Assembly: GCF_000317205.1 (NCBI RefSeq)
Contig: NZ_AJLK01000162.1
Location: forward strand, 1-33,536
DNA: 33,536 nucleotides
Reading direction: 5' to 3'
DNA from: Fischerella muscicola PCC 7414
GTDB taxonomy: Bacteria > Cyanobacteriota > Cyanobacteriia > Cyanobacteriales > Nostocaceae
Each line of letters begins with the position of its first letter. The stretch's first letter is position 1. Both the position numbers and the translations under genes were made by a program. This document shows, piece by piece, positions 14,316-17,080 of the stretch. The notes below the pieces were generated by a model. The model ran no database searches. It was not told the origin of the DNA and worked only from the letters and a program-made list of their open reading frames with translations.

Positions 14316-14852
14316 ATGGTTGTCCAGCTAGAAACCCCAAACGAAAATTTGACACTCAGCCTACCATACTCGATAGAAGGACTAGTACAAGTTTTCACGA
14401 GTACGCATCGTAGTTTTTTTACTAGTGTTATGGCTCAAGCACTGAGAATCGCTGGTCAAGGTACGCCAGTGTTAGTGGTGCAATTTCTCAAAGGAGGCAT
14501 AAATCAAGGACATCAACGGCCGATTAGGTTGGGACAAAATTTAGATTGGATTCGTTGTGATTTACCTCGTTGTATCGATACACCACACCTCGACGAAAGC
14601 GAAGCTCAAGCCTTACAAAAGTTGTGGCAACATACACAAAAGGTCGTATGTGAAACTAAGTATTCTCTCGTTGTCCTAGATGAGTTAAGTTTAGCGATTA
14701 ACTTTGGCTTGATTCCAGAAACGGAAGTTCTAGCCTTTTTGGCAAAACGTCCTGCTCATGTCGATATCATTCTCACAGGGCCAGATATGCCCAAGTCGAT
14801 TCTAGAGGTGGCAGATCAAATCACAGAGATCCGTCGCAGTCATCAACCTTGA
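14316..14852 (+). CDS. BtuR/CobO-like protein with degenerate P-loop
   Basis: Protein of 178 residues resembling the ATP:corrinoid adenosyltransferase BtuR/CobO/CobA along most of its length: LVVQFLKGG (53-61) matches VVQFIKG, SLVVLDELSLAINFGLIP matches MVLLDELTYMV, then VDIILTGPDMPKSILEVADQITEIR. The N-terminal segment that should be the Walker A loop (GNGKGKTTAA in E. coli BtuR, recalled) reads STHRSFFTSV at residues 29-38, with no gap in the alignment. The glycines and both lysines are gone. It is thus unlikely to bind ATP in the normal way, and I do not assign adenosyltransferase activity. ATG start. A palindromic mini-element and the intein-bearing dcd follow on the same strand. Confidence 0.7.
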   Translation: MVVQLETPNENLTLSLPYSIEGLVQVFTSTHRSFFTSVMAQALRIAGQGTPVLVVQFLKGGINQGHQRPIRLGQNLDWIRCDLPRCIDTPHLDESEAQALQKLWQHTQKVVCETKYSLVVLDELSLAINFGLIPETEVLAFLAKRPAHVDIILTGPDMPKSILEVADQITEIRRSHQP

Positions 14853-14873
14853 GGTGAATGGGAATAGGGGATT

Positions 14874-14981
14874 TAGTGGTTTGTGTCATTCGTTCTGACT
14901 CTTTGCGAGGGGTCAGATCCCCGACTTTTTAAAAAAGTCGGGGATCTTGCAGCCCATAAAAATTAATGGGACAGACCACTA
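14874..14981. mobile_element. Mini-element with 17-bp terminal repeats and a perfect 33-base palindrome
   Basis: TAGTGGTTTGTGTCATT (14874-14890) and AATGGGACAGACCACTA (14965-14981) are inverted copies at 14 of 17 positions. Between them AGATCCCCGACTTTTT (14915-14930) and its exact complement (14932-14947) form a 16-bp perfect stem around one base. At about 108 bp with no coding capacity it looks like a MITE. It may also act as a terminator after the BtuR-like gene. Confidence 0.55.
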
Positions 14982-15107
14982 GGAACAGGAAATTAGGAAT
15001 TAAAGAAAATAAATATTATTTCTCCCTAACTCGATCCCTAATCACCTATCCCCTATTCCCAATTCAGGATATTCTATATACTTTGGTTTTTTGATTATTC
15101 TCAACTT

Positions 15108-16505
15108 GTGATTAAGAACGATATTTGGATTTCTCAAATGGCTCAAAAGGCTATGATTCACCCCTTTGAGCCAAGTCTGATTCGAGAAATTAAAGATTCA
15201 GATGCTCCACACTTACGCCGTGTTATCAGCTATGGTTTGTCTTCTTACGGGTATGATATACGGCTTTCTCCTGTTGAGTTCCGAATTTTTCGCCACATTC
15301 CTGGAACTGTTGTTGATCCCAAAAACTTTAATCCTCACAATTTGGAACCAACACCACTGCATACAGATTCCAATGGCAGTTACTTCATCTTACCTGCACA
15401 CTCCTATGGTTTGGGGGTTGCTTTGGAAAGGTTGGAAGTGCCAGACAATATTACAGTGATTTGTATAGGTAAAAGCACTTATGCAAGATGTTTTAGAGGA
15501 GATACTCGTGTAGCTCTAGTTGATGGTACATCTCCAACGTTAGAGGAAATGGCTGAACGCTCTGAAAATGGAGAAAAATTTTGGGGGTATAGTATTGGTC
15601 AACATGGAAGAATAATAGTCACTCTACTAGAAAATCCGAGATATATCGGTCGAGATTCTTTATTAGAAGTGACTTTAGACAATAACGAATCAATATTTTG
15701 TACACCCGATCATCTTTTTATGACTAGAGATGGTCGAATGGTTGAGGCTCATAATCTCAGACCACAAGATTCTTTAATGCCTCTTTACCGTCAAATTGCT
15801 CGTGGTTATGAGATGGTGTATCAACCGCTTAACGGTCATCTTTACCCGACTCATCGATTGAGTGATGAGTGGAATTTATATTACGAAATTTACGAGGACA
15901 CTCCTAATACTCACCGCCATCATGTTGACTTTAATCGTTTGAATAATAATCCCTGGAATATTGCCAGGATGGATGCTTCAGCACACATTCGACTACATAA
16001 CCAGGAAAACTATGGTGATGAGTTTGATCATGATGCACAGGTCGAATCTATTAGAGAAGCTATTGCCAGACTCAAACAAAATGTTGAATGGAATGCTTGC
16101 GATCGCTCTGTGTTTAGGCGATTTCCAGAAGTTATACAAGCGTTTACAGGTATATCACAAAGTCATCCTCTTAAAAACCACAAGGTTATATCTGTGAAAG
16201 AAATACCTGGTATTCATGATGTTTATTGTCTAACCGTACCTGAAGCAGGTAATTTTGCCTTAGAAGCAGGAGTTTTTGTGCATAATTGTGGCATAATCGC
16301 AAATCTAACTCCTGCGGAGGCTGCATGGCGCGGTCATTTAACTTTAGAATTTTCTAATTCTTCTAGTGCTGACTGTCGGATTTATGCTAATGAAGGCGTT
16401 GTGCAATTACTATTTTTAGAAGGCGAACCCTGCGCTATTAGTTATGAAGCACGCCAGGGTAAATATCAGGATCAGCAAGAAAAAGTGACTCTTGCTAAAG
16501 TCTAG
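15108..16505 (+). CDS. dcd: dCTP deaminase interrupted by an intein
   Basis: Deaminates dCTP to dUTP for thymidylate synthesis. The 465-residue precursor consists of N-extein 1-127, intein 128-393 and C-extein 394-465; the spliced enzyme would be 199 residues, the usual Dcd size. Dcd motifs are SYGLSSYGYDIRLSP, PAHSYGLGVALERLEVP, the active-site GKSTYAR, then C-G-I-I-A-N-L-T-P after splicing, and HLTLEFSN with the catalytic Glu414 (148 after splicing). The split lies directly after Arg127, the residue equivalent to the active-site Arg of E. coli Dcd (SSLAR). The start is GTG at 15108; a second in-frame ATG (residue 11) is possible, but MIKNDIWI fits the family. A strong hairpin follows the stop. 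Without splicing the enzyme should be inactive. Confidence 0.93.
   Translation: MIKNDIWISQMAQKAMIHPFEPSLIREIKDSDAPHLRRVISYGLSSYGYDIRLSPVEFRIFRHIPGTVVDPKNFNPHNLEPTPLHTDSNGSYFILPAHSYGLGVALERLEVPDNITVICIGKSTYARCFRGDTRVALVDGTSPTLEEMAERSENGEKFWGYSIGQHGRIIVTLLENPRYIGRDSLLEVTLDNNESIFCTPDHLFMTRDGRMVEAHNLRPQDSLMPLYRQIARGYEMVYQPLNGHLYPTHRLSDEWNLYYEIYEDTPNTHRHHVDFNRLNNNPWNIARMDASAHIRLHNQENYGDEFDHDAQVESIREAIARLKQNVEWNACDRSVFRRFPEVIQAFTGISQSHPLKNHKVISVKEIPGIHDVYCLTVPEAGNFALEAGVFVHNCGIIANLTPAEAAWRGHLTLEFSNSSSADCRIYANEGVVQLLFLEGEPCAISYEARQGKYQDQQEKVTLAKV
15489..16286 (+). other. Dcd intein with HNH endonuclease region (266 aa)
   Basis: The intein starts with Cys1 (CFRGDTRVAL, block A) and ends with VHN followed by Cys+1. 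Block B is CTPDHLFMTRDGR with Thr72 and His75 (intein numbering). Block F/G is VYCLTVPEAGNFAL then GVFVHN. Between them, HRHHVDFNRLNNN (142-154), NI at 157-158 and HIRLHN (166-171) look like an HNH homing endonuclease rather than a LAGLIDADG type. All splicing residues are present, so it should splice. One HIP1 site lies inside at about 16099, so the intein has adapted to, or derives from, a cyanobacterial genome. Boundaries were fixed by joining the exteins to restore the Dcd motif. Confidence 0.92.
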
Positions 16506-16510
16506 TTTTG

Positions 16511-16535
16511 AAGGTGTGTTAACGTAACACACCTT
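16511..16535 (+). terminator. Hairpin after dcd, likely terminator
   Basis: AAGGTGTGTTA (16511-16521) pairs perfectly with TAACACACCTT (16525-16535) around ACG, starting five bases after the dcd stop codon. Only short T runs follow, so it could be a terminator or an mRNA 3' stabiliser. Confidence 0.55.
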
Positions 16536-17080
16536 ATAACTTATTTATGAAAGTAAATATTAAGTAGTGGACTGACACGACTAAAATAATGCGTATTTAT
16601 TTTGTGGGTTGGGTTGAGTTTTCCAGACCCAACATTATTAAGATAAGTTGGGTTTCCTTGCGTCAAACGCCACTTGCTACAACTGTTGGAACCCCCCGCA
16701 GTGGCTTCCTAACCTATTCTTAATGCACTATTTTATACCTAAGAGTGTTTTAACAAGGAACGCCTGAGAATTAAGATCGCTTTCTCAAGAGACGGCTACT
16801 TTCTCAATGAAAGTTGCTGAATATCGATTCTCAAAACAAGAACTGTGTAGGATGCACTACACTTAATTAAGAAAGATTCAGTGCAATTCCTTTTATTGTC
16901 AGGTGCAAACCTTTTTTGTCTCTAGATTGAATCAAAATATATTCTGTAGGCAAGAAGCACACAACTGGCTAAATTGTTATAAGAAAAGTTTAAAGGAGAG
17001 TAACTAACCTCAAAAATCTTAATAAGAGGATAATCTTCTCCTGCTGTAGATAAACACCGCTCAAGTTATTAAGATTCCTT
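16536..17080. other. Intergenic region with a REP-like hairpin
   Basis: No gene is supported. GTTGGGT (16608-16614) pairs with ACCCAAC (16627-16633), a GTTGGGTT-type repeat common in cyanobacteria, with a further GTTGGGTTT copy at about 16649. A GCCAC/GTGGC pair flanks about 16670-16706. The promoter of the downstream two-gene unit should lie in 16900-17080, but I cannot point to boxes. Confidence 0.4.

Follow-up and report, generated by a model that had tools for sequence, protein, structure and literature searches.

A Shortened HNH-Type Intein in the dCTP Deaminase of Fischerella muscicola PCC 7414, Probably Gained Recently by Lateral Transfer

Known Inteins of dCTP Deaminase

Inteins in dCTP deaminase (Dcd) are already known from haloarchaea and from a cyanophage. 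In the accessible part of a 2014 paper, a 'dtd' intein of deoxycytidine triphosphate deaminase is listed for 6 Halobacteria and 0 Bacteria (PMC4071816); on that part of the source, its host enzyme agrees with the one studied here by name alone. In cyanophage vB_AphaS-CL131, the dCTP deaminase ORF069 contains an intein at aa 133–483, which self-excised in E. coli according to the available text of the 2018 report (PMC6293099). An earlier note on the present DNA, made from the letters alone, named no well-studied Dcd intein and is outdated in this respect. Among the matches listed by full-text searches within the openly licensed literature, there was no paper on Dcd inteins of bacterial chromosomes, and the available excerpt of a study of neighbouring haloarchaeal inteins does not mention any deaminase (PMC10643990).

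The intein analyzed here lies in a contig of Fischerella muscicola PCC 7414 (NZ_AJLK01000162.1), the whole 33,536-nucleotide stretch of which is called the window. It shares with the CL131 intein (MG209611.1) the host enzyme, the insertion site, an HNH endonuclease, Cys1, and Cys+1. The CL131 intein differs in that it is only about 38% identical, is longer (352 aa), ends in KN, and sits on a very long branch of the intein tree. Full-length Dcd inteins are also found in Nostocaceae, e.g., in Nostoc sp. TH1S01 (locus L035). The L035 intein occupies the same site and is 91% identical to the window intein over shared residues, but it has 383 residues, including 117 that are missing from the window intein.

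The Interrupted dcd Gene

The layout of the gene is as follows.

15108..16505, + strand: dcd ORF with intein; 465 aa precursor; GTG start, the start sequence being identical in both congeners
15108..15488, + strand: N-extein, Dcd residues 1–127, last residues GKSTYAR
15489..16286, + strand: intein, 266 aa, Cys1 to Asn266
15489..15824, + strand: N-terminal splicing part, intein residues 1–112 (border chosen by us), with block B TPDH
15912..16001, + strand: HNH motif, intein residues 142–171, HRHH...LNNN...HIRLHN, predicted strand-strand-helix
16170..16286, + strand: C-terminal splicing part, intein residues 228–266, blocks F and G (border chosen by us)
16287..16505, + strand: C-extein, 72 residues from Cys+1, plus the stop codon

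The precursor is thus divided into 127, 266, and 72 residues, with the interruption directly after Arg127. Residues 1–127 and 394–465 align to solved dCTP deaminases, one of which, 4dhk, reads GKSTYARCGII without an insert. The proposal that joining residue 127 to residue 394 restores a normal 199-residue Dcd is borne out by TIGR02274, which scores the interrupted ORF at 90.7 bits, below the cut-off of 92.8, and the joined protein at 111.9 bits, above it. The Arg of the GKSTYAR motif is catalytic in E. coli Dcd, so that the precursor should be inactive. Only one dcd was found in the genome, together with one copy of the Dcd intein. A promoter scan of 14850–16700 gave 0 consensus promoters vs. 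5.4 in shuffles and is uninformative on the intein.

Two side observations concern the genome at large. The dUTPase family model PF00692 has no match in genome G000 up to E 1; 13 of 14 control genomes match it. Only one other intein N-terminus was found in the genome (L122, contig C201 of G000); its ORF resembles DNA polymerase III alpha, the usual host of split DnaE inteins.

Identity and Class of the Intein

The earlier note placed an intein in Dcd at 15489–16286, and these borders prove exact to the base. Pfam Intein_splicing (PF14890) spans insert residues 9–266 (2e-19), and the insert ends match TIGR01445 (1.1e-8) and TIGR01443 (3.2e-4). An AlphaFold2 model of the insert has a mean pLDDT of 77.5 and a pTM of 0.56; its best Foldseek matches are solved inteins, with NpuDnaE (4kl5, E 3.7e-8) at the top, which suggests a Hint fold for the predicted structure. 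The class 1 residues, i.e., Cys1, Cys+1, TPDH as the block B TxxH, and the terminal HN of block G, are present as had been claimed, and chance is excluded as the source of the intein features. The endonuclease had been called HNH-like. The HNH catalytic residues are indeed found by alignment, in a predicted strand-strand-helix; the window intein itself has no Pfam match for HNH at E 0.1, and HNH_3 (PF13392) matches the homologous stretch of the phage CL131 intein (7.7e-10). By its residues, the insert belongs to the class 1 (Cys1) cis-splicing inteins and is of the HNH type; it sits directly behind the active-site Arg of Dcd.

Class 3 was considered when the Cys at block F:4 turned out to be invariant. 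The other class 3 positions are B:12 and G:5, and in the window intein their putative equivalents, by our own placement, are Phe77 and Val264. In class 3 inteins, as described in the available part of the source, Cys1 is absent and a Trp-Cys-Thr set is found, with the Cys at F:4 (PMC7765530). Class 3 is ruled out by the presence of Cys1, and its other characteristic residues were not seen.

A search of the insert against intein models and cyanobacterial Dcds, which the earlier note had proposed, returned intein matches and same-site relatives. The RtcB-type intein model NF052663 matches the entire window intein (1.6e-41), and the GyrB (3 checked) and RtcB (2 checked) inteins match this model as well; these inteins differ from ours by host gene and are about 30–47% identical to it. 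Among the plasmids searched with the window intein, there was one weak match only, in gyrB of a Bernardetia plasmid.

Empty Alleles and Unequal Divergence

The Dcd N-extein is matched in 45 of 60 related genomes, a set that includes the window's own. A long frame, of 353–613 aa, is present in six of the 45 (own included); the frames of the remaining 39 are 194–249 aa in length, too short to accommodate an intein. The two same-genus genomes belong to these 39; their site is empty, with a continuous GKSTYARCGII, and their N-exteins are 98% and 97% identical to that of the window. The inteins of L035 and L004 are 91% identical to the window intein over shared residues, yet for the N-exteins of these two loci, identity to that of the window drops to 84% and 82%.

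At the codon level, ten relatives were compared, and dS was computable for all three parts in seven of them, values above 1 being rough. The intein dS is below that of both exteins in five of the seven (intein, N-extein, C-extein): L035 (0.313, 1.085, 1.187), L004 (0.371, 1.523, 1.391), L034 (0.291, 0.991, 1.228), L005 (0.501, 1.130, 0.945), and L037 (0.781, 1.525, 1.534). In L036, the intein value of 0.685 is below that of the N-extein (1.002) and above that of the C-extein (0.617), and the same holds for L033 (0.935, with 1.574 and 0.765). For L007, L042, and L047, dS is saturated for most parts.

Because the intein is far closer to the Nostoc inteins than the host enzyme is, we consider that the window intein was probably gained recently by lateral transfer. 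The mobile origin expected in the earlier note, which had suggested a comparison with intein-free alleles of sister strains, agrees with the empty congener alleles and with an intein less diverged than the host exteins.

A cyanobacterial extein tree was built from 43 rows, 17 with an intein (phage included) and 26 empty. Intein presence changes at least 12 times on this tree vs. a mean of 13.7 for shuffled labels, with 24 of the 40 inner branches drawn open. In a quick intein tree, the cyanobacterial inteins form one starred set. A CL131-like phage is disfavoured as the direct recent source, given the identity of about 38% and the very long branch of the CL131 intein.

The Residue at +1

Splicing requires Cys, Ser, or Thr at +1. 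In the 26 empty cyanobacterial Dcds, which are those among the 30 loci fetched from the 45 matching genomes, the +1 residue is Cys in 21 and Val in five, the latter grouping as a single set on the cyanobacterial tree. Six empty viral Dcds, among ten loci, have Ala (2) or Met (4) at this position. All 58 intein-bearing Dcds have Cys. The pattern fits a host-range limit set by a single residue, although the sample is small and its members are related to one another. The occurrence of Val, Ala, or Met in empty Dcds suggests that an allele can become closed to the intein by a single substitution.

A Shortened Endonuclease

By alignment, the window intein is a shortened form of the 383-residue intein, and the loss of 117 residues is in frame. 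Two further features mark the event.

16097..16098, + strand: deletion junction, where L035 residues 204–320 (117 residues of the 383-aa relatives) are missing
16098..16145, + strand: remnant of the helix-turn-helix-like end piece (CDRSVFRRFPEVIQAF), intein residues 204–219

A model of the full-length intein has a pLDDT of 78.5 and a pTM of 0.41, its domain arrangement being unsure. In this model, the lost 117 residues are predicted to be helical and to include helices 1 and 2 of a four-helix end piece, which we read as helix-turn-helix-like. Among 37 full-length inteins, the mean majority share of the end piece is 0.814, vs. 0.810 and 0.821 for the splicing parts; the helical stretch preceding it is variable (0.574). 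Compared with its full-length relatives, the window intein therefore has an incomplete C-terminal, DNA-binding-like endonuclease part. The shortening escaped the earlier note, and an intact homing endonuclease is not supported, as half of this conserved unit is among the residues gone. At the junction, only a few bases of microhomology are apparent by eye.

Up to F179, every HNH residue that shows no variation among the 37 full-length inteins is retained. H184, likewise invariant in the 37, is Gln in the window intein. In a comparison with five relatives, residues private to the window intein occupy 7 of 111 endonuclease positions but 1 of 151 positions in the splicing parts (Fisher p 0.011, a post hoc test on small counts); four of the seven lie within residues 181–185 and may be one event rather than independent changes. 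Private changes in four relatives (splicing/endonuclease: L004 1/1, L035 1/1, L036 4/5, L005 8/3) are without this skew. Because the deletion hits the conserved end piece, substitutions concentrate in the endonuclease, and H184 is changed, homing has probably been lost and splicing kept. The retained HNH residues could still allow catalysis.

Same-Site Inteins in Other Organisms

A scan of genome contigs found 58 relatives of the window intein, 55 of them in dcd. The same-site inteins that could be excised at both ends also number 58, namely the window intein, five from related genomes, 51 of the 55, and that of phage CL131; L069, L076, and L086, with the C-terminal junction off the contig, and L074, with a broken frame, are excluded. 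The figures for L006 and L041 are identical, and the two probably represent a single organism. As to L074, the Dcd of this Burkholderiaceae MAG has a same-site intein whose frame is broken in the C-terminal splicing part, either a sequencing error or a dead allele.

All 58 same-site inteins have Cys1, Cys+1, and the block F:4 Cys. They end in HN (40), SN (10), RN (5), KN (2), or LN (1). Sizes range from 155 to 386 aa, with 36 inteins of at least 365 aa and 22 shorter. The seven shortened cyanobacterial inteins (window, L006, L007, L008, L033, L034, and L047, with L041 set aside) have seven different pairs of deletion borders; thus, shortening occurred repeatedly. Some shortened non-cyanobacterial forms lack no more than a portion of the variable helical stretch, and these are not necessarily dead.

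In the intein tree, the 57 rows were assigned by record title to Pseudomonadota (22), Chloroflexota (13), Cyanobacteriota (11), Bipolaricaulota (2), Planctomycetota (1), and Gemmatimonadota (1), with 7 ungrouped; many rows are MAGs, and the single-MAG phyla may be binning errors. Phylum labels change 9 times on this tree, where the minimum possible is 5, and 5 times on an extein tree of 55 rows over the same-site loci, empty alleles excluded. These changes hint at transfer between phyla and are no proof of it. The intein's first 110 residues have a match at E ≤1e-30 in 11 of 291 genomes drawn from the order (own included), in frames of 353–629 aa, the host gene being read for the fetched loci only. 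The window intein itself has no match in the viral contigs. Alignment-based and pattern scans together detected a same-site Dcd intein on three viral contigs, L124, L140, and L141. The latter two resemble the CL131 type and may be one virus, since the frame of L140 coincides exactly with the first part of that of L141.

At one codon position of dcd there is thus a natural series, some of it in related genomes: empty, full-length (about 374–386 aa), and shortened to as little as 155 aa. Such a series suits tests of the homing cycle and of a possible benefit of endonuclease-free inteins, and the 155- and 167-residue inteins may serve as small splicing tools. This site-wide picture of Dcd inteins is of more interest than the single window case.

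Proposed History and Alternatives

We hold with considerable confidence that the window has a class 1 HNH-type Dcd intein of recent lateral entry that is now splicing-only and immobile. The sequences themselves show an intein at this site, empty alleles in the congeners, unequal divergence, and the deletion. A full-length or already shortened relative would have entered dcd recently by lateral transfer, presumably via HNH-directed homing into the conserved GKSTYAR/CG site. Splicing would proceed by an acyl shift at Cys1, transfer to Cys+1, and cyclisation of Asn266; the 266-residue intein would be released and the exteins joined into a normal Dcd of 199 residues. Until then, the precursor would be inactive. 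With 117 endonuclease residues gone, the element would most likely be in the decay phase of the homing cycle. Splicing of the window copy, homing as its entry route, and the loss of cleavage are the steps that we infer. For splicing, the analogy with the same-site CL131 intein, which was removed in E. coli, makes it most likely that the window intein splices too.

An intein that still homes despite its shortening, with the HNH core and the remaining helices recognising and cutting dcd and the lost part dispensable, is unlikely. The retained invariant HNH residues up to F179, the variability of the lost helical stretch before the end piece, and the existence of several shortened forms would all suit such an intein, but two of the four helices of the conserved end piece are deleted too, the invariant H184 is Gln, and the substitutions are concentrated in the endonuclease. 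That the insert is an assembly artefact or a misbinned fragment has a negligible chance of being right. The assembly is a draft of 270 contigs and the insert is absent from both congeners; however, the frame is single and uninterrupted, the site is exactly that of 55 dcd loci elsewhere and of phage CL131, and the single-contig assemblies G027 and G034 have a same-site intein.

Retention as a post-translational switch, in which redox- or stress-dependent splicing gates dUTP supply, is exceedingly doubtful. It would agree with the active-site position of the intein in the sole dcd found, with the F:4 Cys that is invariant beside Cys1 and Cys+1 (58/58), and with the persistence of shortened inteins across many hosts. 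Against it, the congeners live without the intein, its presence is patchy, and retention is expected regardless of benefit, because loss must be precise. A splicing-only, immobile intein of recent lateral entry remains the reading that we prefer.

Several Inteins in One Dcd

In a Thermoflexales MAG (L060, 893–4873), a 1327-residue frame consists of Dcd and three inteins at three points of the catalytic loop.

L060 intein 1, after GK: 412 aa, LAGLIDADG_3, +1 Ser
L060 intein 2, after STYAR: 376 aa, same family as the window intein
L060 intein 3, after TPFEP: 341 aa, Hint matches below cut-off, +1 Cys where relatives have Glu

Chromatium okenii DSM 169 (L071, 914–3418) has two Dcd inteins, a LAGLIDADG one after GK and one of the window family after STYAR. 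In C. okenii LaCa (L058), only the post-STYAR intein is present, with the same internal deletion as in DSM 169.

A broader proposal is that the Dcd catalytic loop (GK/STYAR/CGIIVNVTPFEP/E, with slashes at the insertion points) is a hot spot with at least three sites, entered in four or more bacterial phyla as well as in phages, and that endonuclease-less inteins are retained there as a switch of dUTP synthesis. Taken as a whole, it is very doubtful. Its hot-spot part is visible in the sequences, the third site in one MAG only, and its switch part is speculative.

A minor observation comes from the C-extein of a Thiomargarita sp. MAG (L044), which reads EPCW where relatives have EPEW; it thus has a Cys at the third site of L060 and is intein-free there.
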